Source: Cyanobacteriota bacterium
GTDB lineage: Bacteria; Cyanobacteriota; Cyanobacteriia; CACIAM-69d
Assembly (NCBI GenBank): GCA_022402445.1
Contig: JAKRSF010000008.1
Coordinates: 248,001-312,000 of the forward strand
DNA length: 64,000 bases
Direction: 5' to 3'
Below are positions 25,928 to 42,212 of this stretch, one piece after another. Every line of letters begins with the position of its first letter. Within the stretch, counting starts at the first letter, position 1. A program made the position numbers and the translations under genes. A model generated the notes under the pieces. It searched no databases, was not told where the DNA came from, and was given only the letters and a program-made list of their open reading frames with translations.

Positions 25928-26471
25928 GCGATCGTCGTCCTCATCTGAAAAAGTGTGCGCAGATGGCTTCCTACTCTTAACTGGGCCATTTGGGGATTGT
26001 CTAGCGGCCCCATGGCCTAGTCCTGATGGGATTATCGCAAAACAAAGCCCCCCTAGGGCTGCCTCGGCGGAATAGGGCGCTGCAATCCCTAAGGGGTGGT
26101 GGACCCCCGGATCTGGGTGTTCACCCCCGATTCTTTCCCGGTTCCTGCTCCGGTGCCCTAGGAATGCCCCCCGCGATCGCCCTGCCCTGCCCCCAGGGTT
26201 GTCCCCAAGTTAATTAATGCTAAAGATTCTCATTAGGTATTCCTGGGATATGGAGAATTGGGAGACGAATGAGAGAAAAAGCGGCAGTCCCCTATTGAGA
26301 AACTTTGGAGTTGTTTTGCAAGGCCGTCTAATCTTCAATCCCTTTAAACTCTCGCGGGTTATGGCTTAGGGCGTCCTCGGGGACGATCCAGGTGAAAGCC
26401 TTGCGATTTTGATGATGGTGAGCGTTCCCAATTGCTTGCCGTTCAGTGAGTTCCTTTCCCCTGGAATTGCT
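25928..26471. other. intergenic region upstream of feoA
   Basis: 544 bp. The left half is GC-rich with no feature. The right half (26210-26350) turns AT-rich and carries the Fur-box candidate at 26219-26237. The feo promoter should lie here; the -35/-10 elements could not be fixed. Confidence 0.5.
26219..26237. promoter_or_regulatory. candidate Fur box upstream of the feo genes
   Basis: GCTAAAGATTCTCATTAGG matches the 19-bp Fur consensus GATAATGATTATCATTATC at 14 of 19 positions, with a 12-of-14 match in its centre. It lies about 235 bp before the chosen feoA start in an otherwise AT-rich promoter stretch. Iron-Fur repression of feo genes is well established in other bacteria. Confidence 0.6.
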
Positions 26472-27185
26472 ATGGACTTTCATGACAGTCATCCTGCTCT
26501 CCCCAATGCCTCTAGAACCCTAGAGGGGCCAGCCATGACGTTTGTTGGTGGGTCCGTGGAGGGGGGCCATGCCCCTGCGGTGGATCCGGCGATCGCGCCG
26601 CGATCGCTCCGGTCTGGTCCCCGTTTGCCCCTTGCCATGGCCCAGGTGGGCGATCGCCTGTGGATTGTGCAGATCCAAGGGGGGGCCACCCTGACCCGTC
26701 GCCTGAGGGATATGGGCCTTAATCCGGGCTGCGAAATCGCGATCGTCAGCCGTACCGAGAGCGGTTCCGTGGTCGTCGGCTTTCAGGGCTGCCGGTTGGG
26801 CCTGGGGGCTGGCATGGCCCACCGTGTCCTGGTGAGCCCCACACCGCCGCCGCCGCCGCACTCATCTACCCCTTCGAGCCCCCCTGGAGTACAGGCCATG
26901 GAATCTATGGAGCCGACCGTTCCTTCCCTGCCGAGCCCCGACGACGGGCCGTCCCTGCAACTGAGCACCCTGGCGGTGGGGCAATCGGGCCGCATTGTGG
27001 GGTACGAAAAGGGCCAGCGGGCCTATCGAGAAAAGCTGCTGTCCATGGGCCTCACCCCCGGCACGCCCTTCACCCTGACCCGCAAAGCCCCCTTGGGGGA
27101 TCCCCTGGAACTGCTGGTGCGGGGCTACAAGCTCAGTCTGCGCAAGGGGGAGGCGGCGCTACTCCGGATTGTGGCGACGGAATAG
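26472..27185 (+). CDS. feoA: tandem FeoA-domain protein
   Basis: 237 residues from the ATG at 26472; an upstream start at 26409 adds a hydrophobic tail of doubtful use. Two FeoA (SH3-like) domains are fused. The first is about 55-120 (VGDRLWIVQIQGG, RLRDMGLNPGCEIAI). The second is about 165-237 (VGQSGRIVGYEKGQRAYREK, LLSMGLTPGTPFTLTRKAP). A Pro/Ser linker joins them. FeoA is a small cytosolic partner of the ferrous-iron permease FeoB and usually has a single domain of about 75 residues; fused FeoA copies also occur in cyanobacteria. feoB follows after a long gap (482 bp), so it may have its own promoter. Confidence 0.88.
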   Translation: MDFHDSHPALPNASRTLEGPAMTFVGGSVEGGHAPAVDPAIAPRSLRSGPRLPLAMAQVGDRLWIVQIQGGATLTRRLRDMGLNPGCEIAIVSRTESGSVVVGFQGCRLGLGAGMAHRVLVSPTPPPPPHSSTPSSPPGVQAMESMEPTVPSLPSPDDGPSLQLSTLAVGQSGRIVGYEKGQRAYREKLLSMGLTPGTPFTLTRKAPLGDPLELLVRGYKLSLRKGEAALLRIVATE

Positions 27186-27667
27186 GTCGGGGCCGTGGGC
27201 GGGCGGGGGCTACGGGGCGATCCATCCCTGGTCACCGTTTAATTCATCCCCGATGGGTGAGTTTAAAAAGCGCCTTGGAATCTCCCGCTTTAGCCCCAAA
27301 CCATGGGCTTGAGCCTAGGAAAACTTAAAACCTTGAACCTTGAGGGACGTCTAAATCGTCCCCTTCTGGCTGTGCCCTGGGCTGAAATTTCACTGGGGTG
27401 GGGGAGGATATTTAACTCTTTTCCCTCTGAATCATCTTTCTCTTGGGATTGCCTTCATTGTCAGATTATCGGTGTCTTCAAATCGCCTTCTTCTTAAGAG
27501 ATTTCCAGAGCTGAAGGCGAAATAACACGAGTCAAAACAGAATAATTTTGACCGCTCAGACATCTTCTGACAGAGAATTCTAATGGCTTTTTTCGATTTT
27601 CTTACCTTGATTTTCTGACCTTGATGTCCTGACCTTGCTTTCATTTGTTGAGCGATTGTCTACTGCC
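27186..27667. other. AT-rich spacer between feoA and feoB
   Basis: 482 bp, increasingly AT-rich toward feoB, ending in a three-unit 14-bp repeat. No credible gene; a 64-codon open frame at 27303 lacks coding character. Its length suggests a separate feoB promoter or leader. Confidence 0.5.
27597..27638. repeat. three tandem 14-bp repeats just upstream of feoB
   Basis: TTTTCTTACCTTGA, TTTTCTGACCTTGA and TGTCCTGACCTTGC lie head to tail, ending 29 bp before the feoB ATG. Possibly a regulator-binding array or replication slippage. Confidence 0.75.
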
Positions 27668-30022
27668 ATGACTTCAACCACAACTGCTTCAGCAACCATT
27701 ACCCTCATTGGTAACCCTAACTGCGGCAAAACCACCCTGTTCAATGCCCTCACGGGGGCGAATCAACAGGTTGGCAACTGGCCGGGGGTGACGGTTGACT
27801 ATAAGGAAGGTCGATATCGCCAGGAGGGCCAGACCATTACGGTGGTGGATTTGCCCGGTATTTATAGTTTGGAAATGGAGGATGAGGGGAGTTTAGATGA
27901 AAGCATTGCTCGGGATTATTTACTGACGGGATCGGCCCAGGTGGTGGTGGATATTATTGATGCGTCCAATTTGGAGCGCAATTTGTATCTGACGACCCAG
28001 CTCCTTGAAATGGGCCTGCCGTTGGTGGTGGTGCTCAACATGATGGATGTGGCGGAAAAACAGGGGGCGGTGCTTCATCCGGAGCGGTTGGCGGAACGGT
28101 TGGGCTGTCCGGTGGTGCCGTTGGTGGCGTCGCGGGGGCAGGGGATTGAGGGGCTCAAGGGGGTGATTCAGGGGGCGTTGGCGGATCTGGTGTTGCCCCA
28201 GGGACAGGTGGGCTATCCGCCGGTGGTGGAGGGGGCGATCGCGGCGTTGATTCCGGCGATCGCCCTGGACCAGCCCCCCACGCCGCGCCACCGGTGGACG
28301 GCCCTGAAGCTATTGCAGTATGACGATGCCCACGGCCCCGCGATCGCGCCGGAACTGATGCGTCAGGTGGTGGAGCATCGCCGCCGCATCCATCAGGTGC
28401 TGGGGGAGGATTTGGATATTTTGGTGGCGGACAGTCGCTATAGCTATGCCCACCGCCTCGCCAGCGCCATGGCCACCCGCCCCCGGGAGGTGACCGTCAC
28501 CCAATCCGATCGCATCGACCAGGTGGTGATGAACCGGTGGCTGGGCATTCCGATCTTTTTGGGGGTGATGTATCTCCTGTTCATGTTTTCAATTAATATG
28601 GGCAGCGCCTTTATCGACTTTTTCGATATTCTGGCGGGGGCGATTTTTGTGGAGGGATTGGGTCAGTTTCTCGATGGCATCGGGACGCCCAGTCTGCTCC
28701 GGGTAATCCTTGCCAATGGCATGGGCGGCGGCATTCAAACCGTGGCCACGTTCATTCCTGTCATTGCCTGTCTATTCCTATTTATGGCCCTGTTGGAAGA
28801 CAGCGGCTATATGGCTCGGGCGGCCTTTGTGATGGATCGCTTTATGCGGTTTGTGGGCCTGCCCGGTAAGTCCTTTGTGCCGATGTTGGTGGGGTTTGGC
28901 TGCAATGTGCCGGCGATCATGGCGACGCGCACCCTGGACAATCGGCGCGATCGCATTTTGACCATTTTGATGAACCCGTTCATGTCCTGCGGGGCGCGTT
29001 TGCCGGTCTATGCCCTCTTTGCGGCGGCGTTCTTCCCGGAGGCGGGCCAAAATCTGGTCTTTTTGCTCTACCTCATTGGCATGGGCATGGCGATCGTGAC
29101 GGGGCTGATTATGAAATACACCCTCCTGCGCGGGGAGGCGTCCCCCTTTGTGATGGAGCTGCCGACCTACCACCTGCCGACCCTGAAGGGGATTGTGCTG
29201 CGCACCTGGGAACGGCTCAAGGGGTTCCTGTGGCGCGCCGGGAAGGTGATTGTGGTGATGGTGATGGTGCTCAGTGTGCTCAATAGCACGGGGCTGGATG
29301 GTTCGATCGGCCATGAAAATAGCGAAAATTCTATCCTCAGTGCCATGGGTCGCCGGGTGGTGCCGGTTTTTGCGCCGATGGGGATTGCTGAGGAGAATTG
29401 GCCCGCGACGGTGGGGATTTTTACGGGGGTGTTTGCGAAGGAGGCGGTGGTGGGAACCCTCGATGCCCTCTACGGTCAGTTGGCGCGGGATGAGGCGATC
29501 GCGGCGGGGGTGGACAGCGGCGACGGGGCGTTTAATTTCGGTGAGCGGGTGAAGGCGGCCTTTGGGACGATTCCGACCAATTTGGCGGCCCTGTCGGGGA
29601 CGCTGCTGGATCCGCTGGGGCTGTCCGTTGGGGATGTGGACGATGTGGCGACGGCGGCCCAGGAGCAGGAGGTGACCCATACGACCTTTGGGCAGATGGC
29701 CCTGCGGTTTGATGGGCGGGCGGGGGCGTTTGCCTATCTCTTGTTCATTTTGATGTATTTCCCCTGTGCGGCGGCGATGGGGGCGGTTTACCGGGAGACG
29801 AACCGTGGCTGGACGGCGTTTGTGGGGCTCTGGACGACGGGCTTGGGCTACTGGAGTGCGGTGCTGTACTACCAGGCGATGACCTTTGGGGAACATCCGG
29901 TGGCGTCCCTCACTTGGATGGGGATTTTGGCGGCGATCGCGGTGGGTACGGTGGCGGCGCTGCGATATCTGCGGCCCCAACGGCGATCGCGGCGGCAGGC
30001 GTTGTTACCGGAAGAGGGGTAG
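27668..30022 (+). CDS. feoB: ferrous iron transport protein B
   Basis: 784 residues from the ATG at 27668; the upstream TTG at 27635 adds only 11 residues. The N-terminal GTPase domain has G1 GNPNCGKT (15-22), G3 DLPG in VVDLPGIYSLEM, and a G4-like NMMD. Then comes the FeoB spacer and a polytopic core with gate motifs (GFGCNVPAIMATRTL, NPFMSCGARLPVYALF) and KEAVVGTLDALYG near the end. It is the inner-membrane Fe2+ permease. The FeoC-like gene follows 7 bp downstream, and feoA lies upstream behind a Fur-box candidate, so iron control is likely. Length is normal for the family. Confidence 0.97.
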   Translation: MTSTTTASATITLIGNPNCGKTTLFNALTGANQQVGNWPGVTVDYKEGRYRQEGQTITVVDLPGIYSLEMEDEGSLDESIARDYLLTGSAQVVVDIIDASNLERNLYLTTQLLEMGLPLVVVLNMMDVAEKQGAVLHPERLAERLGCPVVPLVASRGQGIEGLKGVIQGALADLVLPQGQVGYPPVVEGAIAALIPAIALDQPPTPRHRWTALKLLQYDDAHGPAIAPELMRQVVEHRRRIHQVLGEDLDILVADSRYSYAHRLASAMATRPREVTVTQSDRIDQVVMNRWLGIPIFLGVMYLLFMFSINMGSAFIDFFDILAGAIFVEGLGQFLDGIGTPSLLRVILANGMGGGIQTVATFIPVIACLFLFMALLEDSGYMARAAFVMDRFMRFVGLPGKSFVPMLVGFGCNVPAIMATRTLDNRRDRILTILMNPFMSCGARLPVYALFAAAFFPEAGQNLVFLLYLIGMGMAIVTGLIMKYTLLRGEASPFVMELPTYHLPTLKGIVLRTWERLKGFLWRAGKVIVVMVMVLSVLNSTGLDGSIGHENSENSILSAMGRRVVPVFAPMGIAEENWPATVGIFTGVFAKEAVVGTLDALYGQLARDEAIAAGVDSGDGAFNFGERVKAAFGTIPTNLAALSGTLLDPLGLSVGDVDDVATAAQEQEVTHTTFGQMALRFDGRAGAFAYLLFILMYFPCAAAMGAVYRETNRGWTAFVGLWTTGLGYWSAVLYYQAMTFGEHPVASLTWMGILAAIAVGTVAALRYLRPQRRSRRQALLPEEG

Positions 30023-30029
30023 GGATCCG

Positions 30030-30257
30030 ATGCTAGGCGTTCTCCAAAGCTATATCGCGGTGCGCGGCACGGTGTCGCTGGCGGATTTGGCCCAACATTT
30101 CCGGATGGATCCCTTGGCCCTCAGGCCGATGCTGGATCGGCTCACCCGGAAGGGGCGAATCCGTCGGCTCCCTTGTCCCGACAGGTGTTCGGGCTGCCAG
30201 TGCTGTGCGGAAAGTCAACTGGAGTATTACGAGTGGGTGGCGGTGCCGGTGCCCTAG
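30030..30257 (+). CDS. FeoC-like winged-helix protein with Cys cluster
   Basis: 75 residues. A small winged-helix fold (LQSYIAVRGTVSLADLAQHF, PLALRPMLDRLTRKGRIRRL) is followed by a Cys-rich segment CPDRCSGCQCC. In enterobacterial FeoC the wing carries an [Fe-S]-binding Cys set, and FeoC protects or senses with FeoB. The gene begins 7 bp after feoB and is surely co-transcribed. The cysteine spacing differs from the E. coli protein, so the metal site may differ. Confidence 0.82.
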   Translation: MLGVLQSYIAVRGTVSLADLAQHFRMDPLALRPMLDRLTRKGRIRRLPCPDRCSGCQCCAESQLEYYEWVAVPVP

Positions 30258-30317
30258 GGGGCGATCGCGTGGGGGACAATGGGGGCCGATGGGATGCGGA
30301 TGAGGAGGAGGTGACCG

Positions 30318-30764
30318 ATGGCCTATTGGCTATTCCAGGGCAATCCGAAGTACTACCGCTTGGATGATGCGATCGCGGATTTCACGGAAATGTATTGGCC
30401 CATGCGGCGCTATGGCCAGTTCGTGGCTCCGGGGGATGGGGTGCTGATCTGGCGGGCGGGGGCGGCGGCGGGGGTGGTGGCGATCGCGGAAATTCTCACG
30501 GCAGCGGCGACGCGATCGGAGGAGTTGGACCGGGCCTACTGGCTAGATCGCACGAAGGTCAAGGCAGAGACCCCCAAGGTGCGGATCCGTTTCACCCGCA
30601 AGCTGGGCGATCGCCCCCTCCTAAAAACCATCTGCAAGGGGGATCCGCTCCTAAAAGATTTGCCGGTGATCCGTCAGCCGAACAATACCAATTACAAACT
30701 GTCGCCCGAGCAGTGGCAGCGGGTGTTCGAGCTGCTGCAAAGGAATCCGTCGGAAAGCAACTAA
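30318..30764 (+). CDS. EVE-domain protein (intact copy)
   Basis: 148 residues. It has the PUA-like EVE fold: N-terminal YWLFQGNPKYYRL, central GDGVLIWRAG and VVAIAEILTA, and C-terminal QPNNTNYKLSPEQWQRVFEL. EVE domains bind modified nucleobases and are frequent in restriction and other defence contexts. It sits 60 bp after the FeoC-like gene, but codon use and neighbourhood make co-function with feo unlikely. A second, broken copy lies at 35541-36056 in the same orientation; the last 150 bp of the two are very similar. Its stop overlaps that of the decayed dynamin-like remnant on the other strand. Confidence 0.85.
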   Translation: MAYWLFQGNPKYYRLDDAIADFTEMYWPMRRYGQFVAPGDGVLIWRAGAAAGVVAIAEILTAAATRSEELDRAYWLDRTKVKAETPKVRIRFTRKLGDRPLLKTICKGDPLLKDLPVIRQPNNTNYKLSPEQWQRVFELLQRNPSESN

Positions 30765-30915
30765 AAAGGCCAGCGTTCTGGCATATGGAAAAAGTCATCC
30801 AAGGCAGATGCCAGTTCAAACAACCTAATTTTACGATCTCCTAAAAACCACGTAAACTCTGCTTGGCATTCTGTCGCCTTTGCAGCAACCTTTCCTTTGA
30901 AGAAATTCAATGGCT
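30761..30915 (-). pseudogene. remnant C-terminal end of a dynamin-like gene
   Basis: On the minus strand this encodes about 40 residues including KATECQAEFTWFLGDRKIR and LFELASALDDF before a TAG at 30761-30763. They align with the C-terminus of the intact GTPase at 36062 (ASVAERQADLAWLESQ, QLIELRVALAGL). Upstream the frame is lost in stops, and no GTPase motif survives. It is therefore the tail of a second, deleted copy, still convergent with the EVE gene just as in the intact pair. Confidence 0.72.
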
Positions 30916-31353
30916 AATTCCTGAACTGCTGGGATCGCGATCGCCAACGCCCCGTTTCCTTGAACAACCGGCGAATTGCCGCGCGATCGCCCCAACTGCT
31001 TCACCCAGAAAAGGTCGAAGAAGGAAAGACCTTCCCGCTTTTATTACGTCCCAGTCCAGAAAACAAGGAGCCGAAGCCCCGCCCCCATCGACATCCAAGC
31101 CCAGGGCAGGGACTGAAACATATGGCTTAGATATCTCATCAGAATCAGATAAAATACAAGCCTATCAACAGACTTTTTCAATAACCCTTTCTCAAAGGAT
31201 CTTGCCAAGAATCAGACCATGAAAAAGGGAGTAAAATAAACACAGATCATCTCTATTCAATCTATCAGCGATTAGTACCTCCCTTCAGGAGCCGTACTGG
31301 CCAATCTCCCCACGGAGCGCCGCAATAGAGACCCTAAGGAAGGAGAACCCCCC
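30916..31353. other. intergenic region before the DUF5132 gene
   Basis: 438 bp with no gene. It may include further decayed sequence of the lost dynamin-like copy, but I cannot align it. An AT-rich stretch at 31130-31290 is the likely promoter area, and GGAAGGAGAA just before the next ATG is a good ribosome-binding site. Confidence 0.45.
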
Positions 31354-31722
31354 ATGCTTCTACAACATGCCCACACCCCTGTTAGCCTGAGGAGCCGGGT
31401 CGCAACCCTGGCCGCCCACCCCAATGCCAAAGTATTAGTGATTGGGGCAGCGGCGATCGCCCTCACGCCCGTCGTTTTGCCCCTGCTGAAGCCCGCCCTG
31501 AAGGCCACGGTCAAAACCAGCGTTGCGCTCTATGAACGGGCGAAGATTGCAGTGGCGGAAACCACCGAAGTCCTCGCTGACATTGCCGCCGAAGCGCGGG
31601 CCGAGGTCCACAATAACGCCGCCGCCAGCGCCGCCAGCGGCACCCCCAACGGCGTCGCCAGCAGCGCCATCAGCACCGTCCCAGCGGCCCCAGCCCCCTC
31701 CGAAGGGGAACCCACCGCCTAG
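31354..31722 (+). CDS. DUF5132-like small membrane-associated protein
   Basis: 122 residues. One hydrophobic segment (VLVIGAAAIALTPVVLPLLK, about 28-48) is followed by an amphipathic helix (VALYERAKIAVAETTEVLAD) and an Ala/Pro-rich tail. The pattern fits DUF5132, small proteins found beside HMA2-domain proteins and metal P-type ATPases, which is exactly the setting here (genes at 32674 and 34871). Strong Shine-Dalgarno upstream (GGAAGGAG). Function unknown; a metal-transport accessory role is inferred from context only. Confidence 0.7.
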   Translation: MLLQHAHTPVSLRSRVATLAAHPNAKVLVIGAAAIALTPVVLPLLKPALKATVKTSVALYERAKIAVAETTEVLADIAAEARAEVHNNAAASAASGTPNGVASSAISTVPAAPAPSEGEPTA

Positions 31723-31768
31723 GTAGGTCCGCCGCCCCAACCGCCCTCACCCCCATCCCCACGCCATC

Positions 31769-31813
31769 GGGGGGCTACCGCCAGGGCAAGGGGCAAACAT
31801 CCGGTAGCCCCCC
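31769..31813. terminator. 12-bp perfect inverted repeat between convergent genes
   Basis: GGGGGGCTACCG at 31769-31780 and CGGTAGCCCCCC at 31802-31813 with a 21-nt loop. It is placed between convergent genes, so a bidirectional terminator or transcript-protecting stem is likely. No T-run follows. Confidence 0.55.
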
Positions 31814-31836
31814 AAACTTGCGGCCCAAACTTGCGG
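31811..31836. repeat. 13-bp tandem repeat
   Basis: CCCAAACTTGCGG occurs twice in direct succession, overlapping the end of the preceding inverted repeat. Confidence 0.8.
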
Positions 31837-32014
31837 TCCGTCGTCGGGCTGATGCGGCAAAAAAATTCGACAAAAATCCCTGGCATGGCGCGATCGCAGC
31901 GAGGGCGATCGGCATCCCAGGGAAACACGAACAGGTTTTCTTAGCAAAACGGCAGGGGCAAGGGAAGCAAATCCCTCGTCGGCAAAGCCATGGGGCCAAC
32001 TAGCCAGGGCACCC

Positions 32015-32296
32015 CTAGGCCACCAGCCGCCCCGCCTCCTGGGGAGCATTCGCCAAAGCCCGCGCCGGTGCCGCCCCAGACCGCTGGGCAAAGGTTTGGC
32101 GCTGCTTCACCCACTCCGTCAAGCCAATGCCGGGACGATAGGGCGACTGCACCGGGGCCGACGGTTCCAGAAGCTTAGGGCCGAGGAGCAACGCCCCAAA
32201 CCCCAACAGCGTCAGGGGATTGCTGAGGGAACCGTCCTCGAGGATTTCCTTGAAATGGAACGTGACGACGGTTTTGTCTAGGTGAACGAGGGCCAT
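32015..32296 (-). CDS. small hypothetical protein with hydrophobic segment
   Basis: 93 residues from the ATG at 32296 (a GTG at 32305 is also possible). It starts with a beta-like stretch (MALVHLDKTVVTFHFKEIL), then a short hydrophobic segment (LTLLGFGALLLGPKLL) and a polar Ala-rich tail. No family recognised. It is convergent with the DUF5132 gene and lies downstream of the metal ATPase on the same strand, separated by 377 bp, so it may belong to the metal cassette. Real coding is supported by consistent codon use and its placement; function not assigned. Confidence 0.6.
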   Translation of the reverse strand: MALVHLDKTVVTFHFKEILEDGSLSNPLTLLGFGALLLGPKLLEPSAPVQSPYRPGIGLTEWVKQRQTFAQRSGAAPARALANAPQEAGRLVA

Positions 32297-32673
32297 GGCA
32301 ATCACTCGGAGGGACTAGATGGGACTTAAATCGGTTAAGGGGAGGTTATTGATTGCAGAAACTTGCGATTAGACGAAGGGCAGCGGTGCCCCCGCGCGAT
32401 CGCCCTAGCGAGTGATTGGCCCGAAAATCCAAGGGTTTCGCCGAAAAAATGAACCCCGGTCAAGGCCGCTGCGCGATCGCTTTGGGTCCGATTGTAGCAA
32501 GCTCTTCTGGATTTGATGCAACCTTCTCGCAATAAGTTTCGGCCGATCGCCGCGATCGCCGCCCCCGCGCGCCTTTCATCCCAGTCCACGGGCTTAATGA
32601 AAACTTATTCGCAATAGGCTCCACCCAAACCGCGATCGCCCCCTGGTCGTCCTAGGGCGTTTGATGACAGACC
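32297..32673. other. intergenic region with separated inverted repeat
   Basis: 377 bp between two minus-strand genes; it must contain the promoter of the small gene at 32015. CGCAATAAGTTTC (32528-32540) and GAAAACTTATTCGC (32599-32612) are near-perfect inverted copies about 60 bp apart in AT-rich surroundings. An 84-codon open frame here lacks coding character. Confidence 0.5.
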
Positions 32674-34878
32674 CTAATCCCCATCAATCACCGAATTGGG
32701 GGCAAATCCGTGGGTCACCAGGGGCCGCAGACTGTTGAGGCCCGCCGCGATCGCGGAGCCATTGTGGATCAACGTCGCCAGCAGCGGACTCAGGCCCGTC
32801 GTACTGGCAAACCCCAGGGCAATCAGATTCGGCAACACCACCAGGGCAATATTCTGCTCAATCAAATCGCGGGTTTCCCGGGCGATCGCGATCGCCTCCA
32901 GCAGCTCCAGCAGATCATTGTCCATCAGCACCACCTCCGCCGTTTCCCGCGCCACCTCCGCCCCCCGCTCAAAGGAAATCGACACATCCGCATAGGCCAG
33001 CGCCACGGAATCATTGAGCCCATCCCCCACAAAGGCCACCGTCCGCCCCGATCGCCGCAAATTTTGGACAATCTTGGCCTTCTGGTCCGGGAATGCCTCC
33101 GCATAGACCCGTTCCGGCGCAATCCCCAGGGCATCCGCCACCCGCGCCGCCCGCTCCGGCGTATCCCCCGTCAGCAGGTACACATCCAACTGGAACGTGT
33201 CCTGGAGCAATTGCAGCAGCCGCCCACTGTCGGGCCGCAGGGGATCCGCATAGCTCAAGGTGCCCACCAACTCCCCATCAAAGGCCACATAAAGGTGGGC
33301 CAAATCCGCCGCCAGATCCAGCGGAGTCTCCGGCCACTGGACCTGGGCCTGCCGCAGGAAGCGCTCGCTGCCCACCTGGACCCGATGGCCCGCCACCTGG
33401 GCCGTCACCCCATAGCCCACCGCATAGTCCCAATCCCCCCGCTCCAGGGGCACCAACCCCCGCGCCTGGGCCGCCTGGGCGATCGCATCCGCCACCGGAT
33501 GGGTGAGACGCTGTTCCGCCGTGGCCGCCCACAGCAGCAGTTGATCCGCGCTCAGATCCGCCCGCACCGGCGTAATCGCCACCAGTTCAATGTGCCCCTC
33601 CGTGAGGGTGCCGGTCTTATCAAACAAAATCGTGTCAATTTCCGCCAACTGCTCCAGGGTGCGGCCACTGCGCACGAGCAAACCGTGGCGGGTGGTGTGG
33701 TTGAGGGCACCGAGGAAGGCGGTGGGAATCGAGACCCGCACCCCGGTCACCAGATCTAAGGTGAGGATCGCGGCGGCCCGGGCGGGATCGCGGGTCACCA
33801 GCAGCACCGCCCCCGCCAGCAGCAGCAGGGGCAGAATGACGCGATCGGCCACCTTTTCCGTGTAATTCGCCATGCGGGTGTCGTAAACCGGCGCGTCCTG
33901 GAGCAGTTGCAGCCCCGCCCCCGCCCGGGTTTGATCCCCCACCCGCTCCGCCCGCAGGGTCAGTTGGCCCGATCGCACCAGGGTTGCCGCAAATACGTAA
34001 TCCCGCGATCGCGCCACGATGGGCATCGCCTCCCCCGTGAGCCCCTGCTGATCCACCGTCGCTTCGCCATCGAGGACCGTGCCATCCACCGGAATTTGTT
34101 CACCGGGGTGGACCACCACGATCGCCCCGACGGGCACCTGATCGCTCGGCACCTGGGTGAGGACATCCCCCGTTTCCCCGGTCTTAATCCAGGCAAAATG
34201 GCCCAGGGCATCCGTCAGGCTAGCCGATCGCACCGCCGTTGAGCGCGCCGTTTGGTTGCGGATCGTATCCCCCAGTTCGTGGAGGGTAATCACCAGGGCC
34301 GGCGTCAGCAAATTGCCCTGGCTCGCGCTCAGGCTAATGGCCAGAAAGTCGAGGCTATCGATCGACAGGCGATGGTCATACCACAGGCTCCGCACCGCTC
34401 GCTGGGCAATGGGCAGCACCAAGCTCACTACGGTGAGCCCCGCCAGGGGCCGCAGCCAGCGCAGCGGGGACCATTGGCTGGTGGCGGCTAGGGCTACGGC
34501 CAGGAGGGGGCGCTGGAGGCTGACCCAGGGGTTGTCGTGATCCTGATCGTGATCATGATCGTCGTGGCCGTGGTGGTCGCGATCGCCCGATTCCTTCACC
34601 AGCGCTGGGGCCGCGATCGCCAACCCTCCGGCCCGAAGCGACTCGGGAGATCCGTCCAACCCCGCCCACAGGTCCGCCAACCGGGCCAGAACCGCCGCCC
34701 CCTGGGAGGGCCGATAGCGCAGGGTCAAGGATTCCGCCGCGCCATTGACCCGCACCGCCAGAATTTCCGGCATGGCCCCCAGGGCCGCCTCCAGTCGCAG
34801 ACCGAGCTGGGCATTGCCCCGCAGATGCGGCACCCGCACCCGTACCCGTCCGGGGATTTGGTGCAAAATTTCAACCAT
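32674..34878 (-). CDS. heavy-metal-type P-type ATPase
   Basis: 734 residues from the ATG at 34878, which overlaps the upstream stop by 8 bases and has GGAAGGGG before it; earlier codons are read-through of the other frame. Domains: HMA2-like N-terminus (EILHQIPGRVRVRVPHLRG), an Asp/His-rich stretch (HHGHDDHDHDQDHD) likely to bind metal, P-type core with actuator LTGEAMPI, phosphorylation motif DKTGTLTEG (Asp420) and hinge GDGLNDSVALAYAD. The helix before Asp420, where P1B pumps carry CPC/SPC, reads DLVTGVRVSIPTA, without Cys, so specificity cannot be assigned. It exports or imports a divalent metal across the membrane. Coupled with the HMA2 gene upstream. Confidence 0.9.
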   Translation of the reverse strand: MVEILHQIPGRVRVRVPHLRGNAQLGLRLEAALGAMPEILAVRVNGAAESLTLRYRPSQGAAVLARLADLWAGLDGSPESLRAGGLAIAAPALVKESGDRDHHGHDDHDHDQDHDNPWVSLQRPLLAVALAATSQWSPLRWLRPLAGLTVVSLVLPIAQRAVRSLWYDHRLSIDSLDFLAISLSASQGNLLTPALVITLHELGDTIRNQTARSTAVRSASLTDALGHFAWIKTGETGDVLTQVPSDQVPVGAIVVVHPGEQIPVDGTVLDGEATVDQQGLTGEAMPIVARSRDYVFAATLVRSGQLTLRAERVGDQTRAGAGLQLLQDAPVYDTRMANYTEKVADRVILPLLLLAGAVLLVTRDPARAAAILTLDLVTGVRVSIPTAFLGALNHTTRHGLLVRSGRTLEQLAEIDTILFDKTGTLTEGHIELVAITPVRADLSADQLLLWAATAEQRLTHPVADAIAQAAQARGLVPLERGDWDYAVGYGVTAQVAGHRVQVGSERFLRQAQVQWPETPLDLAADLAHLYVAFDGELVGTLSYADPLRPDSGRLLQLLQDTFQLDVYLLTGDTPERAARVADALGIAPERVYAEAFPDQKAKIVQNLRRSGRTVAFVGDGLNDSVALAYADVSISFERGAEVARETAEVVLMDNDLLELLEAIAIARETRDLIEQNIALVVLPNLIALGFASTTGLSPLLATLIHNGSAIAAGLNSLRPLVTHGFAPNSVIDGD

Positions 34879-35410
34879 GGGCCGCCGCCCCTTCCGCCTG
34901 GGCCAGCAGATCCAGCAGGCGCATCCCCAATTCCAGCTCACTGAGGTGGCCTTCGTCGTAGCGGATGGCGATTGATCGCGCCGCCCGGTTCACCCGCACC
35001 CCCAGAACGATGTCCTGCTCCTGGAGCAATTTTTCGAGGCGCTTTGCGAAGGGGGGATCCTCCTGGAGGCGAGGGATCCGCAGGCGGATTCGCCCCGGTA
35101 CGGAATGGACGATCATGTAGTCCTCCTCGGGCGGCGCGGGGGCGGGGGCCACCTCCACCAGGCGGGGCGGGCTCGGGGGGGCTCCGTGTTTTTTGAGTTG
35201 AATGATGGTTTGGCGGGTGATGGCCGCGATCGTGAGGTTCACCAGGAGGGCCGTGCCCCCCCGCAGGCGCAGTTGGGTGGTCACCAGGAGCCCCGCTAGC
35301 ACCGGCAGGATGGTGGCAATTTCCCCATATTCCTCCAGCCAACGGCCCACTTGCGAAAGTTGCTCAGGAGTGGGGCTGGGTTTTGGGTCACTGACGGACG
35401 AGAGAGTCAT
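34871..35410 (-). CDS. HMA2-domain membrane protein
   Basis: 179 residues. Residues 25-75 contain a hydrophobic pair (EIATILPVLAGLLVTTQLRL, ALLVNLTIAAITRQTII), followed by a Pro-rich linker and a C-terminal ferredoxin-like HMA2 domain (IVHSVPGRIRLRIPRL, VLGVRVNRAARSIAIRYDE). Like other HMA2 domains it has no CxxC metal motif. It overlaps the P-type ATPase start by 8 bases, so it is a translationally coupled partner, probably a regulatory or assembly subunit of that pump. Its own domain resembles the ATPase N-terminus, suggesting duplication. Confidence 0.82.
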   Translation of the reverse strand: MTLSSVSDPKPSPTPEQLSQVGRWLEEYGEIATILPVLAGLLVTTQLRLRGGTALLVNLTIAAITRQTIIQLKKHGAPPSPPRLVEVAPAPAPPEEDYMIVHSVPGRIRLRIPRLQEDPPFAKRLEKLLQEQDIVLGVRVNRAARSIAIRYDEGHLSELELGMRLLDLLAQAEGAAAHG

Positions 35411-35540
35411 GTTGAATACACCTTGGGCGAGTCCCTGGATGCGATGGTCGCCGGGGGATAGACGGTTTGAGATGGGGCTAATTCTAGCGCCCCCATCCTC
35501 TGGCCCAAGGGATGGATTGCAAATTTTTCTTAATAAACTG

Positions 35541-36056
35541 TTGCGATCGCGGCGATCGCAACCCCAGCGACAGCCCGAACGGAGAAGCTAGACCAGGCCC
35601 CTTGGCTAGATCGCACGAAGGTTATAGACAATTCAATAATCAATCAACTACCGGTAGGGTGCGTTCGGTATCGCCCAGCCCAACGCGATCGCGCATTTTT
35701 CCCGAACGCACCGATCCCATTTGAATTGATGCGATCAAGATTTTGCTTCAGATTAGATTCGGACAGGGGACGGTGCGTTCGGAAGGGCAAAGTTACGGCG
35801 AGAATTCAACAGGACCGAACGCACCCTACCATTAATTATTGATTTGGTTATAAGACGGATGTCCCCAAGGGGTGAATCTGTTTCGTTTGGCGGTTGGGCG
35901 ATCGTCCTCTCCTAAAAACCACCTGTAAGGAGGAGCCAATCCTATAAAGACCTGCCGGTGATCCGTCAGCCGAACAATACCAGCTACAAACTGTCGCCCG
36001 AGCAGTGGCAGCAGGTGTTTGAGGTGCCGCAAGGGGAACTGCCCAGCAGGGACTAA
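35541..36056 (+). pseudogene. broken EVE-domain gene carrying a MITE-like insertion
   Basis: Sequence aligns with the intact EVE gene. The left part (35541-35629) matches its middle (GGCTAGATCGCACGAAGG identical), and the right part (35846-36056) matches its 3' end, including a long identical block around GATCCGTCAGCCGAACAATA. The 5' third is missing, a 216-bp insert interrupts it, and TAA at 35945-35947 plus a one-base insertion destroy the frame. It therefore cannot make an EVE protein. Confidence 0.88.
35653..35830. mobile_element. MITE-like element, copy 1 (inside EVE pseudogene)
   Basis: 178-bp core with terminal inverted repeats GGTAGGGTGCGTTCGG and CCGAACGCACCCTACC, plus an internal pair CCGAACGCACCG (35702) and CGGTGCGTTCGG (35771). 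AT-rich tails flank the core. GGTTATAGAC (35620) and GGTTATAAGAC (35846) look like an imperfect target-site duplication. No coding capacity. Confidence 0.85.
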
Positions 36057-36061
36057 AGCGA

Positions 36062-38701
36062 CTAACTTGCAAGCTTATGGGATAAGCCAGCCAAGGCGAC
36101 TCGCAGTTCAATCAACTGATCTTTTTGCGACTCTAGCCATGCCAAGTCTGCCTGCCGTTCAGCGACACTTGCATCCGCAATTTTTTGATTGCGCTTTAGC
36201 TCCAGATTGAGCTTGAGAATGTAGTACTCACTTCTCTTACTAATTGCGGTAATTTTATCCTCAAATCGTCCACGAATAGCATTCTCAAGTTGTTGAATCA
36301 AGTTTGGGACTTCCCTCGAAATACTAATCAATCCCTCCTTAAAAACCGCTTCTCGAATCCCTTCATCAAGCTTACTCAAAACACCGAAACCACTGCCGAG
36401 TAGCCCGCCACCGCCAACCAAACCAACGACAGCCGCCACAATTGGCGCGATCGCGATACCCGGAATCAAAACCGCTGCGCCAACAGCCCCCGCAATCAAG
36501 ACTCCAGCACCCATACCAACGGCTCCCCCTACGCCCCAAGCTCCCATCTCACGGTCAATATCTGAGATGCCTAGGTCGTTCAAACAAAACACCTGTCTCG
36601 CTTTTGGGGATAGAACCTCCTCTCCTAGTCGAGCTAAACCCTTATCCATTTCTTGCATGATTTTTTGAGAAGCCTGCTCAATTTCACCAAGGGCTGGATC
36701 CATAATCTCTGGAATCAATGTTTCCTCGCACCACCGTTCCAGATCCTTAGAAAAATCAGATTCTAACTGGCTGATATAGTCCTTAATTTTCTGATCCCTC
36801 TCCCACAGTGAACTATGTCGATCAGTCCAATGGGATGAAGCGATCTTAAGTCGTTCCGCAAGACCTGTCTCCCATCTCTCGACACTAATACGATATTGAT
36901 CAACTGTTGCCTTGCATTGTTGCTTTACCTGCTCTTTAAACAGCGCTAAGCGACCGCCAATATCTCCAACCTCCTCTAAAAATTGTTGCTTGACCTCATC
37001 TTGAATTGAGAAGATTTCACCGGATAGAGAATTATGAAGACTGTCAATCTCGCTCAAGATCATGTCATAAAATCTCTCTGCCCTAGCCTGCGCAGCATTG
37101 AGTCGGATAGATCCGCTTTCCCGTGTCAAAAAATTCTCTAGGGTCGTGACAAAATTCTCTAGACTCTGCAAATATTCATCGTTGCTATTGCGTTGAATGG
37201 CCTTGAGCGCCTTGCCGGCAGATAAATAGTGGAGCCGATCAGGAGATGCCAAAATCGGACCCTTACCATCAAAGGGTTTCAGTAGCTTCTTCTCCGCTCG
37301 TTCTTTTGCATCCTCTCGATCTGCCTCATCCTCCAATAGATCCATAAAGTTGACAATAAAGAATAAAGATTCTGCAGGACGACTTTCATCGCCAAGATTA
37401 AGTTGCTTTCGCAGATCCTCTAAAATCTGAAATTCAGATTGAGACAAAAGATTTTGTGCATGGCTTAGCACAATAGCTGCGTCAATTTTTTCGAGAATTT
37501 TTTGTGTAATCTCCGTTCGTTTCGGATGTTCATTTAATCCTGGCGAGTCAATAATGACGACGCCTTGCTGACAAAGGTTGAGATGCGGACTACCAAAGAC
37601 CACCTTCTCAATTTGCGAAGCCTCTAGCAATGCATTACCGAGGTTATCTCCCCTGGCTTCACTCCGAGGAATCGATACACGCTCTTGGTACTCGTCAGGC
37701 AAAAGTAGTTCCTCACGTCCATCCGTGTAGTAGCAAGTGATCTCTGCTGGATCAGCATGACGAATCATGGAAATTGCGCCACTACAAGGAATTGCGCGTA
37801 CGGGCTGAATCGGCTCTCCCAATAAAGCATTGAGCAGCGTTGATTTTCCTTTGCTAAATTCTCCGACGATGGCGATCCGAAATTCAGAGCCTTTTAGATC
37901 GTCGTGAATTCTTGTCAAGTCTTCAAGAAGTTGAGTGTTCAGAAAAGATTTATCAATGAATTCCACAACAATTTCCTGAATTTGCTCCAGAATATTGAGC
38001 AATTCAGTACGGGCAGATTGAAAGGCAATAAATCCTTGATATTGGATGTTATTTTGAGGGTCGTGACGCCCAGCTACAGTTTTCGTCTCTAGTGACACAT
38101 TGGTATAAATTCGATCATGAATATAGGTTGCAGCATCAATCAAGGATAGCTCAAGACCTTGAAAACGCGATGGATCAAGCAATTGAGAAACTTGTTCTTT
38201 AGTCTGAGGATCGAGATCAGGATCGGATATATTACAAAAAGCTGCCTTCAAAACATTGATCCACTCAGGCTTTAAGCCAATTTCTTGCCCCACCCGTTCT
38301 AGATATCTTGCCTCGCGATCATCCATCGATCCGTCTGCGGCCGCCATCTCATAGCCAAACGCAATCAGCAATAGTCTTTCCGCGATCGCGAGGGGCTGAA
38401 CCAAGCAAACGAGATGCTGTAGTTTTTTGTAGCTCTGCTGATTCTTGATTCCCTGAAAAATCGCCTTAGCAAATTCCTGTGTGCTAGAACAGTCTCCAGT
38501 GAGGCGCTGAATCGTGTCACGGAGCCGCTGTTTTTCTTCCAGGGCTACAGCGGAGTCCGCCAGAATTGTCCCCAACAGGATAGCTGTGAGTGCGCTGGTA
38601 AAGACAATGGATCGTGGGACCGACTGATCAGGCTCTGGCTGTCCGGTAAGGCTAGCAATCAAACCTAGCGTATCGCGATCAACAACTGATTGCTTACTCA
38701 T
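36062..38701 (-). CDS. dynamin-like GTPase with N-terminal TerB-like domain
   Basis: 879 residues from the ATG at 38701 with AAAGAG upstream (TTG at 38716 is an alternative). Residues about 70-170 resemble TerB (LIAFGYEMAAADGSMDDREA). The GTPase has P-loop GEFSKGKSTLLNALLGE (from 280), G3 VIIDSPGLNEH (near 382) and NFMD (near 450). Long helices follow. A hydrophobic paddle/TM region lies at about 720-760 (VGGAVGMGAGVLIAGAVGAA), then a C-terminal helical stalk. Bacterial dynamin-like proteins remodel membranes. Divergent from the unknown gene at 38875, convergent with the EVE pseudogene. Base composition is less GC-rich and HIP1-poor compared with neighbours, suggesting transfer. Role in defence or stress is inference. 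Confidence 0.88.
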   Translation of the reverse strand: MSKQSVVDRDTLGLIASLTGQPEPDQSVPRSIVFTSALTAILLGTILADSAVALEEKQRLRDTIQRLTGDCSSTQEFAKAIFQGIKNQQSYKKLQHLVCLVQPLAIAERLLLIAFGYEMAAADGSMDDREARYLERVGQEIGLKPEWINVLKAAFCNISDPDLDPQTKEQVSQLLDPSRFQGLELSLIDAATYIHDRIYTNVSLETKTVAGRHDPQNNIQYQGFIAFQSARTELLNILEQIQEIVVEFIDKSFLNTQLLEDLTRIHDDLKGSEFRIAIVGEFSKGKSTLLNALLGEPIQPVRAIPCSGAISMIRHADPAEITCYYTDGREELLLPDEYQERVSIPRSEARGDNLGNALLEASQIEKVVFGSPHLNLCQQGVVIIDSPGLNEHPKRTEITQKILEKIDAAIVLSHAQNLLSQSEFQILEDLRKQLNLGDESRPAESLFFIVNFMDLLEDEADREDAKERAEKKLLKPFDGKGPILASPDRLHYLSAGKALKAIQRNSNDEYLQSLENFVTTLENFLTRESGSIRLNAAQARAERFYDMILSEIDSLHNSLSGEIFSIQDEVKQQFLEEVGDIGGRLALFKEQVKQQCKATVDQYRISVERWETGLAERLKIASSHWTDRHSSLWERDQKIKDYISQLESDFSKDLERWCEETLIPEIMDPALGEIEQASQKIMQEMDKGLARLGEEVLSPKARQVFCLNDLGISDIDREMGAWGVGGAVGMGAGVLIAGAVGAAVLIPGIAIAPIVAAVVGLVGGGGLLGSGFGVLSKLDEGIREAVFKEGLISISREVPNLIQQLENAIRGRFEDKITAISKRSEYYILKLNLELKRNQKIADASVAERQADLAWLESQKDQLIELRVALAGLSHKLAS

Positions 38702-38874
38702 ATTGCGCTCTTTCAATCGAACACTGGATTGACTAGCCCTTCAGGACTAACCTTTGCTACAGTATATCGAAAGCTCTCAAAAAAATCACTTTGCCAAGAT
38801 CGACAAAGCCATAAAGTCCTTGACAAAGCGAAAGAAAACTTAACCACTCATTCTGGATAAGGCTGGTTGCTGCA
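38702..38874. promoter_or_regulatory. divergent promoter region of the dynamin module
   Basis: 173 bp, AT-rich, between the dynamin-like GTPase and the membrane-associated partner gene; it must carry both promoters, so the two are probably co-regulated. No operator identified. Confidence 0.4.
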
Positions 38875-40281
38875 ATGGTGATGTCGTTTGTTTTTCCGGC
38901 GTTGATACAGGCAGGGCTCGCATCAGGGGCTTATGAGGTGGTCAAGAGTCAGGCGACCGGTCGTCTTATTGGGCTAGCTCGTGATGCAGTAACTAAACGG
39001 TTTGTTGGTCATGCGATTGGTATGGCTACCTCTGCTGGTGCTTCTCCCCTGCTGGCTCCGATGCAAGTCGTAACGAGCTTGGTTGTTGGTGCTGTCCAAT
39101 CGGCTCAGGTGCATCAAGGCTTTCAAAATACTTATTTTGAACTGGGTGTTCTCAAAGTAGGCCAAGCTTTGACAGGGGGTGCTTTGGCCGCCCAGTCAGC
39201 TCAAATACATCAGGGTTTTCAAAAAACCTATTCTGAAATCAATGTTGTCAAATCAGCAGTTTTTGGCTTGCAAAATAGTGTTGGAATTTTGCAAGCTAGT
39301 CAAGCCATCTTAGGTGTGGGTGTTGTTACTGGAGTTGCCCTTTCGGCTGCGAACCTGTGGCAAACTATGCAGCTACGAAAGGAGGTGCAGCAACTCGGTA
39401 TGGAGATGAAAGAAGGCTTTCTTGATCTGGAAAGATTGATTGGTAATCAGGGACGAGAAATCAGGGATCAGATTCAGAATGTAGCTCAAGATGTGAAATT
39501 TGAGCAGCACCGCGTGATTTTAGTTCGGGCCTATGGAAAATTTCTCGAAGCCAATCAATTAATTCAAACGGCGCTGGCTTGTGATGATTTGACGATCCGG
39601 AATCAGACACTTGCTAATGCAGAGTCAATGCTCTCGAATGCCTTGGCAGACTATCGAAATCCGCAGCTACTTTCAGATTTATCCGCCGCCGCCCGTTTGC
39701 GCCGCCTAGAATGCTGCTGGGCTATTGAACAAGCCTTGGTGCTGACCTTTCAACTTCGCGGCCAGTATAAGGCGGTGGTTGACCGTCTGTCTCAGTTGCG
39801 ATCGCGCATTGCTCAGTCCGCCAATGACTTGCTCAACTTGGCAACCGTTGAAGAAACTGAGTTTCTAGTTCCTGAGCTGATGCGAATCCACAATGCAGAT
39901 CTGGAGATAATTGACTCATGGATTGATCACGCCGACTGGATCTCAAGACTTTCAGAAGATGAACTTTTGGAAATTGGGGAGGGTATGACGACATCCCAAT
40001 CGGTCGAAGAGATTGAGGAAGATGATGCTCAGGTAATGCCAGCGGAAATGATCTTATATCAGTCATGGACTCAAAAAATGCCGACAGCATCGATTCGAGA
40101 TGCCGTGATGTTTATGTTTGATCCTAAGCTTCGACAACCAATCATTGAAGAGATTCAAGCTGCTGCAACAGCTCGCCGCTACTATGGCATAGATACTGAG
40201 AACTTGCAGCTAGCATCTAATCTTACACTGGCTAATTTGAAGCAATATTTTCTTCATGTGTCTATGGCTTCTGGCATCTAG
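38875..40281 (+). CDS. hypothetical membrane-associated protein, partner of dynamin-like GTPase
   Basis: 468 residues; no family recognised. Residues 1-165 are hydrophobic and Ala/Gly/Val-rich, with a likely membrane helix near 145-163 (AILGVGVVTGVALSAANLW) and an internal duplication: QSAQVHQGFQNTY near 77 and QSAQIHQGFQKTY near 108. Residues 165-220 form a polar coiled coil (LRKEVQQLGMEMKEGFLDLE). The remainder is a helical domain. The short acidic patch SVEEIEEDD is near 382. Codon use and GC match the divergent dynamin gene. The nucleotidyltransferase gene begins 4 bp downstream, so they form an operon. Likely acts with the GTPase at a membrane; this is inferred from position. Confidence 0.75.
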   Translation: MVMSFVFPALIQAGLASGAYEVVKSQATGRLIGLARDAVTKRFVGHAIGMATSAGASPLLAPMQVVTSLVVGAVQSAQVHQGFQNTYFELGVLKVGQALTGGALAAQSAQIHQGFQKTYSEINVVKSAVFGLQNSVGILQASQAILGVGVVTGVALSAANLWQTMQLRKEVQQLGMEMKEGFLDLERLIGNQGREIRDQIQNVAQDVKFEQHRVILVRAYGKFLEANQLIQTALACDDLTIRNQTLANAESMLSNALADYRNPQLLSDLSAAARLRRLECCWAIEQALVLTFQLRGQYKAVVDRLSQLRSRIAQSANDLLNLATVEETEFLVPELMRIHNADLEIIDSWIDHADWISRLSEDELLEIGEGMTTSQSVEEIEEDDAQVMPAEMILYQSWTQKMPTASIRDAVMFMFDPKLRQPIIEEIQAAATARRYYGIDTENLQLASNLTLANLKQYFLHVSMASGI

Positions 40282-40609: not shown

Positions 40610-40668
40610 TTCAACAGTAAGGTGAAAAATAGTGACGCAAGGGGCTGATTCTCAAATCAAAAATTAAT

Positions 40669-40877
40669 GGTAGGGTGCGTTCGCCACGCATAATGTTCAC
40701 CGGGATGTCGTTAATGCGAACGCACCGCTCCCTTTGGATATAACCGATCAATATTGCCGATGGATATCACCAAAATTCTGGACTAGCATGGGCGATCGCG
40801 CTGATTTGGGTTGGGTCGGTGCGTTCGGAATAGATACAGGGTCCCGTTGAGTTGAACGGTATCGAACGCACCCTACC
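40669..40877. mobile_element. MITE-like element, copy 2
   Basis: 209-bp core with ends GGTAGGGTGCGTTCG and CGAACGCACCCTACC, and internal GCGAACGCACCG (40716) and CGGTGCGTTCGG (40817). Closest to copy 3: both share GGGCGATCGCG then TGATTTGG and a common left interior. No coding capacity. Fills most of the 324-bp gap after the MNT gene. Confidence 0.85.
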
Positions 40878-40933
40878 GCTGGTTGATGGATTTCAGCCCA
40901 TTAGATCATCATCAGATCAATCGATGATCGCCC

Positions 40934-42031
40934 CTAACCGTTGTCCGAATTGGCCGCCAGATAGAGCGATCGCAACTCCCCATAGCGAGCCTCCCGGTGA
41001 TCGTAGAGGCGCTTGAGGGGGCGCGGTTCACAGCGTTCCAGGGCATAGGCCCCCAGGACCGGCAGGGCGATCGTACTGTCCGTGTAGCAAACGATCGTAT
41101 CGGCTAGGGCATCCGGGTCCACCTTGCCCCAACTCACCGCCTCGCTGGGCACCGCCCCGGAAAGACCCCCCGTATCGGGCCGCGCATCGGTCACCTGAAC
41201 AAAATAATCGTGGCCCCGTTCTTCCAGCTTCAAAACCTCATGGATTTGCGGCTGGGTTTGCAATAGAAAATTCTTGGGACTGCCGCCGCCGATCATAATG
41301 GCTGCACTCTTCCCGTTGTCCTCCTCTCGCGCAAAATACGCGATCGCGGCGGTATCATTCACATCAATGGACGGATCAATTACCAGCTTCGATCCTTCCA
41401 GGGCCACGGCGGCCACATTCATGCCAATGGAACTGTCCCCCGGCGAGGACGTAAACACCGGCACGCCGCACTCGTAGGCCGTCGCCAATAGGCAATGGTG
41501 TTCTGCGCCGCGCTGCTTTTCTACCTCATAAATGCACTGGCCCAGCAGGTGATGAAATTCCGCCGTGCCCATGGTTTTTTGGAACGGTTCCGTTTGGATG
41601 ACGCGGCGGATAAACGAATCCGTATCGAGCAAAACGTCGTAGTCAAAAATGATGTCGTAGATGCGGATGGTGTCATTTTTCCGCAGTTCCACATCGTCGA
41701 GAAAGGGGCTGCTGGAAAACAGATCCATCCCTAGGCCGTAGTGCAAATCGTGGTAGAGATTGGCCCCCGTGGCGATGAGATAGTCAATAAATCCTGCGCG
41801 CATGAGCGGCCCCAGGACCGAGACGCCAAACCCGGCGGGCGTCATGGCCCCCGACAGGCTCATGCCGACGGTGACTCCGGGCTGGAAGACCCGCTGGCTC
41901 AGGAGCTGGCAGATTTCCCGCAGGCGGGCGGAGTTGTAGGCCGTGAAGTAGCGATCGACGAGATCGGTCACCTTGAGGTGGCCGGAGATGGGCGTGGGGT
42001 CGATTTTGCGACCGGCGAGCGGCTTAGGCAT
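40934..42031 (-). CDS. deoxyhypusine synthase family protein
   Basis: 365 residues from the ATG at 42031 (MPKPLAGRK). Rossmann-like core with [43 protein letters not shown] and the active-site Lys in [13 protein letters not shown]. Eukaryotic DHS transfers the butylamine group of spermidine to eIF5A; bacteria lack eIF5A, and several bacterial homologues act on free polyamines as homospermidine synthases. In cyanobacteria a polyamine role is therefore most likely. Length and catalytic Lys are normal. Divergent from ispH. Confidence 0.9.
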
Positions 42032-42212
42032 TCCCAGAAACGTTCCCCATCGGCGGGCGATCGCCGATGCTGCAACAACGGACAAATTTTACGATGGTTC
42101 CACGGCGTCAGTGCCAGGGGGCCGGGGTCGATGGGGGGCGCGGGATGCCCTGTTAAAATACGGACTTGCTGCGCCGCCCTCACGCTGTCATTACTACGGG
42201 AGCTTGGATTCG

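Follow-up and report, generated by a model that had tools for sequence, protein, structure and literature searches.

A repeated EVE-dynamin gene junction in a cyanobacterial genome and a different, conserved partner for its TerB-dynamin

Do an EVE-domain protein and a dynamin-like GTPase belong together when their genes meet end to end twice within a few kilobases? The question is raised by a locus in the 64,000-nucleotide stretch of cyanobacterial DNA analysed here (the window), which comes from contig C11 of a 4.08 Mb genome (G000). At 30.3 kb an intact EVE gene is convergent with a remnant of a dynamin-like gene, and at 35.5-38.7 kb the arrangement is repeated with a broken EVE gene and an intact GTPase, as Pfam matches and alignments confirm. 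The initial annotation read this as one ancestral pair that was duplicated, each copy keeping a different gene, and took the conserved pairing as a sign that the two proteins belong together. We compared the locus with 386 cyanobacterial genomes, inspecting 20 loci of dynamin relatives (L117-L136, up to 6 kb per side) and 29 loci of EVE relatives (L088-L116, up to 10 kb per side); the relatives found by search were cyanobacterial. The locus is probably best explained by an old rearrangement of the junction that lies beside a separate module made up of the dynamin and another partner. EVE and the dynamin almost certainly do not form a unit.

The first copy of the EVE gene (30318-30764, + strand, 148 amino acids) lies downstream of feoA-feoB-feoC and is intact. 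It matches PF01878 over profile positions 1-144 of 145 with 62.1 bits (cut-off 23; E 7.7e-17), which places it in the EVE family, and its full-length relatives in other cyanobacteria are 42-56% identical; phmmer returned no relative in the PDB at E 0.01. Convergent with it is a decayed dynamin C-terminus (30782-30979, − strand), identified by DNA and protein alignment, which retains about 66 codons rather than the 40 first reported and contains one internal stop. This remnant reads against residues 812-880 of the intact GTPase with a protein score of 46, a value that 1 of 300 shuffles also attained. The second EVE copy (35540-36057, + strand) is a pseudogene that keeps only codons ~54-148 and is convergent with, and abuts, the intact GTPase gene (36062-38716, − strand). 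Three defects separate it from the first copy: codons 1 to ~53 are gone, an insert of about 229 bp interrupts it, and a 1-nt indel near 35945 shifts the frame.

The two copies align in three blocks (30477-30559 with 35540-35622, 30561-30653 with 35852-35944, and 30654-30824 with 35946-36116), beyond which they continue to align with small gaps up to 30900 and 36188. The part past the EVE stop, which belongs to the dynamin tail (30781-30900 against 36073-36188), scores 63.5 at the DNA level, well above the shuffle maximum of 38-44 (0 of 500), so the similarity between the two 3' regions is above background. A direct repeat of the EVE-3'/dynamin-3' junction, ~420-500 bp long, therefore stands on either side of a metal-transport cassette. 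Since the match runs across the end of EVE into the 3' end of the dynamin gene, the sequences support a common origin of both loci, and each locus keeps a different intact gene. The EVE 3' ends had been described as nearly identical, which holds only for a 76-nt patch (30654-30729) at 92% identity; over the remaining EVE blocks, identity averages 72% (Fisher p=2e-4). This patch looks like a conversion tract or a stretch under unequal constraint. Differences between the EVE copies fall near-evenly on the three codon positions (24/15/26), a pattern that free drift of one copy would be expected to give.

The ~229-bp insert in the second EVE copy (35623-35851) is delimited by the block junction 35622/35852 against 30559/30561. 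It has inverted ends and is flanked by TA, and a second copy, inverted relative to the first, is recognizable by its inverted repeats at 40653-40892. The family is TA-flanked with ends TATA...GGTAGGGTGCGTTCGG and has 55 partial hits in the genome, many covering one end only; it is probably similar to miniature inverted-repeat transposable elements (MITE-like). An Rfam scan of the window gave 0 matches. Beside this variable region lies a deoxyhypusine-synthase-family gene (40934-42085; PF01916, 2e-65) that is 82-84% identical in three same-family genomes.

A pairing of EVE and dynamin that reflects function would be expected to recur, and it does not. EVE was found at 0 of 20 loci of dynamin relatives and a dynamin at 0 of 29 loci of EVE relatives, within the flanks inspected. 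EVE relatives occur in 20 and TerB-dynamin relatives in 17 of the 386 genomes, and both occur in 2, against 0.9 expected by chance (P=0.22). The sole other genome that has both (G140) carries them on different contigs. No neighbour of EVE recurs across its relatives beyond close relatives. The EVE relatives are plasmid-borne in Nostoc and often truncated in other cyanobacteria, which suggests a mobile accessory gene; Phormidium sp. FACHB-1136 carries three EVE relatives on three contigs (L090, L092, L093). The idea that the two proteins belong together is thus refuted, in essence by the search of related genomes for the convergent pair that the initial annotation had itself proposed, and a false lead that tied EVE proteins to dynamins is removed. 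Its fuller version assumes the duplication of a complete pair, the independent loss of a different gene from each copy, and joint action of both proteins; in its favour, pieces of both genes are present in either copy, with the convergent order preserved. Given the absent adjacency, the chance-level co-occurrence and the lack of a recurrent EVE neighbour, it is nevertheless very unlikely, and the geometry of the locus makes independent losses unnecessary.

That geometry is best seen in the order of the genes. A whole EVE gene is followed by the dynamin tail, then by a cassette (31354-35410; Pfam, NCBIfam) of a DUF5132 protein (31354-31722, + strand; Pfam), a heavy-metal P-type ATPase (32674-34941, − strand; Pfam, and NCBIfam TIGR01525 at 3.5e-138) and an HMA_2 protein (34871-35410, − strand; Pfam), and then by the EVE piece and the whole dynamin gene. 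Truncation affects the inner pieces, on their cassette-facing sides, and both outer genes are complete, so two independent losses are not needed: one rearrangement that brought in, or was bounded by, the metal cassette at 31.0-35.5 kb would suffice for both. Common origin and a different intact gene on each side thus survive from the first reading of the locus, while "opposite decay" in the sense of two separate losses was an overstatement. Iron and heavy-metal transport genes surround the first EVE copy from 26409 to 35410, namely feoA (with two FeoA stretches), feoB, feoC, and the DUF5132, P-type ATPase and HMA_2 genes.

One form that such an event could have taken is an insertion-duplication: a single crossover would have integrated a circular molecule with the metal cassette and an EVE-3'/dynamin-3' fragment, so that whole outer genes and truncated inner ones arose together. 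Whether this happened we regard as evenly balanced. The truncation of the inner genes towards the cassette fits, as does the occurrence of the ATPase and HMA_2 genes, adjoining a FeoB-like gene, in two genomes of the same family (G002 and G004) that have neither this EVE nor a full-length TerB-dynamin. However, we found no precise empty site; the layout differs in the same-family genomes that lack EVE and this dynamin, the nearest genomes belong to other genera, and the copies are 23-28% diverged, so that no trace of the event survives. Alternatively, a full tandem duplication could have been followed by a single deletion or replacement of the middle part. It is extremely unlikely that the two loci are instead independent acquisitions of related EVE genes. 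EVE is indeed accessory (20 of 386 genomes), plasmid-borne in Nostoc and often fragmented, but the similarity extends beyond the EVE stop to the tail of the dynamin gene, and the second copy is closer to the first (78% over 32 amino acids) than is any full-length EVE elsewhere (at most 56%). We therefore keep to an old local rearrangement that would have produced the junction repeat on both sides of the metal cassette, after which the outer genes stayed whole, the inner fragments decayed, and one of these fragments was also hit by the MITE-like element.

If EVE is not the partner of the dynamin, its other neighbour is the better candidate. Across an intergenic region of 158 bp (38717-38874) the dynamin gene is divergent from a gene of no known family that encodes a mostly helical protein of 468 amino acids, here called x468 (38875-40281, + strand). 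A partner of this kind adjoins the dynamin in 19 of the 20 loci, and in the 20th (L123) the contig ends within the dynamin; the layout is mostly divergent and in a few cases collinear. It is present in all 17 genomes with the dynamin, against 32 of 386 overall (P=3e-21). That the dynamin and x468 form a paired module is highly probable. x468 had no match in Pfam, NCBIfam or PADLOC and no convincing match in the PDB (best E 0.012, over a short stretch); no viral homologue was confirmed and no copy was found on plasmids. In two genomes the partner carries a C-terminal acyl-carrier-like domain (PF00550; L126:8646-10259 at 1.3e-11 and L136:7877-9454 at 9e-6), of which the L136 protein keeps the DSL-type serine motif, apparently lost in L126. 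This fusion is a hint that points towards lipids. The end of x468 is overlapped by a gene for an MntA/PDC-S09-like minimal nucleotidyltransferase (PF01909; 40256-40609), and a related gene adjoins the dynamin in L117. A stretch next to the first dynamin remnant that might have been a relic of x468 (repeat D19, 30894-30934 against 39845-39885) was rejected, as 6 of 300 shuffles reached its protein score and it gave no profile match.

The dynamin itself is an intact protein of 884 amino acids with matches to Dynamin_N (PF00350; 1.7e-22, 80.7 bits against a cut-off of 27) and, at its N-terminus, to TerB (2e-8). Its P-loop is GEFSKGKST at residues 285-293, and all 17 relatives have a P-loop. The profile of the 17 relatives matches the bacterial dynamin-like protein (BDLP) of Nostoc (2j68/2w6d) at E 6.4e-51 over profile positions 214-861, followed by mitofusins at ~1e-13 to 1e-16. 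A hydrophobic stretch at 727-780 in the window protein, found near 720-780 in 17 of 17 full-length proteins, would correspond to the position of the BDLP membrane tip. Judged by its sequence, the protein has three features of a BDLP: a GTPase domain with intact P-loop, a helical neck and trunk, and a putatively membrane-binding hydrophobic tip.

The partner also occurs away from full-length dynamins. In 14 further cases its gene has no adjacent full-length dynamin but another, divergent neighbour, whose product is ~340 amino acids long where intact. These proteins match columns 495-859 of the dynamin profile (profile-profile probability 99.9%, E 5.9e-34), corresponding to the stalk, and have neither P-loop nor TerB; we refer to them as headless. 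The hydrophobic stretch is missing in 11 of the 12 that were aligned, the exception being L211. A tree of the stalk groups 11 of the 12 headless rows in a single clade (100/100), with L211 outside it on a long branch. Close pairs of headless genes that were tested have a ratio of nonsynonymous to synonymous substitution (dN/dS) of 0.18-0.45, which indicates that they are maintained and are not debris. Decayed cases also seem to occur (L205 with 252 amino acids, L206 with stops, L208 with 129 amino acids). The ~340-amino-acid proteins lie at L201-L204, L209-L211, L213, L214, L216 and L217 (genomes G289, G198, G146, G090, G383, G239 and G176) and are always divergent from x468. Stalk and partner persist and decay jointly: a stalk gene adjoins 13 of 13 intact partner genes that lie away from a full dynamin, and a stalk fragment was found at only 1 of 7 truncated partner genes. 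Their divergence is correlated as well (Mantel r=0.80, 0 of 2000 permutations; 0.72 for full-length and 0.93 for headless pairs).

The constant pairing, the correlated divergence of partner and stalk, their joint decay and their persistence where head, TerB and hydrophobic stretch are all missing lead us to infer a two-protein membrane-remodelling module. The hydrophobic stretch of the stalk would let the TerB-BDLP protein bind membrane, and its assembly, together with membrane remodelling or repair, would be driven by GTP. The partner may bind the stalk and not the head, anchoring or controlling assembly; that it acts on the stalk seems somewhat probable. TerB may sense stress, with stress or phage as the trigger. 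By analogy with BsDynA and other BDLPs (PMC9950537, PMC10104851), the most likely role is membrane repair or protection against stress, although for membrane remodelling or repair as the actual function the case stands in the balance. More tentatively, and with less than even confidence, the pair could be a stalk-based membrane module, in which the partner binds the stalk and a separate, selected lineage dropped the GTPase head, TerB and the membrane tip and kept stalk and partner. If so, the stalk-partner complex would have a GTP-independent job or work in trans on full-length dynamins.

Alternatively, the dynamin and its partner could serve in defence against phages in the manner of Eleos, as the LeoA/LeoBC system is now called. 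PADLOC profiles match LeoA (1.2e-17) and LeoBC (5.1e-16), which argues weakly for this, the spread is patchy (17-32 of 386 genomes) and the adjacent nucleotidyltransferase matches PDC-S09 in PADLOC. BsDynA, moreover, is cited as delaying phage lysis (in PMC9950537 and PMC10104851). However, there is no adjacent second dynamin gene and the partner is not a dynamin, the NCBIfam LeoA model (NF041922) gives 32.8 bits against a cut-off of 325, and the full protein occurs in no phage or plasmid record. Nine large sampled neighbours of the pair are ordinary genes (Tex, LeuRS, ArgRS, a glycosyltransferase and others), with 0 defence genes among them, which makes a defence island less likely. A defence role of this type is therefore rather doubtful, and we retain a membrane-remodelling module as the preferred reading.

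Several points weigh against our account of the locus and of the module. The 92% patch suggests later gene conversion, which blurs dating, and a single-event history is indistinguishable from stepwise loss. Part of the partner-stalk correlation may come from shared inheritance of the whole locus. The dynamin of the window stands far from its relatives (end branch 2.13; over the stalk, 25% identity to the nearest row), and the partner has no detectable family; its single-sequence structure model reached a predicted local distance difference test score (pLDDT) of 49 and was not used for fold searches.

The duplicated junction is real but ordinary. The two-gene dynamin module with stalk-only variants is more interesting and apparently undescribed. 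Little is known of the partners and triggers of cyanobacterial dynamins, and reviews call their functions "enigmatic"; a constant partner with no earlier name, its fusion to an acyl-carrier domain and the headless relatives of the stalk offer handles on what the stalk does without a GTPase. The survey of 121 cyanobacterial dynamins by Jilly et al. 2018 (PMC5827413) distinguishes KGK, HSR1, chaperone, Tandem A, Tandem B and unclassified groups; its main text makes no mention of TerB and presents neither a TerB clade nor a partner of this kind. Bacterial dynamin genes are as a rule paired, the partner being another dynamin (PMC6104087). The text of the EVE census (PMC7641849) mentions neither dynamin nor cyanobacteria, and our literature search found no paper on TerB together with bacterial dynamins. 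Nor did it find a published account of the dynamin-x468 pair, which is weak evidence of novelty as the subscription literature lay mostly outside the search.

Set against known systems, the window EVE protein resembles other EVE domain proteins (Bell et al. 2020, PMC7641849) in scoring above the PF01878 gathering threshold, and differs in being a solo accessory gene without a conserved neighbour. With LeoABC/Eleos the module shares paired genes and a PADLOC similarity to LeoA and LeoBC over the stalk, but it has one dynamin gene, a neighbour without a GTPase domain, a TerB domain, and a LeoA score below the cut-off. Like the KGK, HSR1 and chaperone clades of BDLPs (PMC5827413), it combines a dynamin with a conserved non-dynamin neighbour; unlike those and the Tandem clades, it lacks a KGK, HSR1 or DnaK neighbour and a second dynamin, its neighbours being x468, which has no Pfam match, a nucleotidyltransferase and the EVE remnant. 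With Nostoc punctiforme BDLP1 (PDB 2j68/2j69/2w6d) it has in common the GTPase and stalk architecture and a hydrophobic stretch at the position of the tip; it departs from BDLP1 and the Tandem A/B clade in its N-terminal TerB and in its gene partner, which is no second dynamin but a non-dynamin protein.

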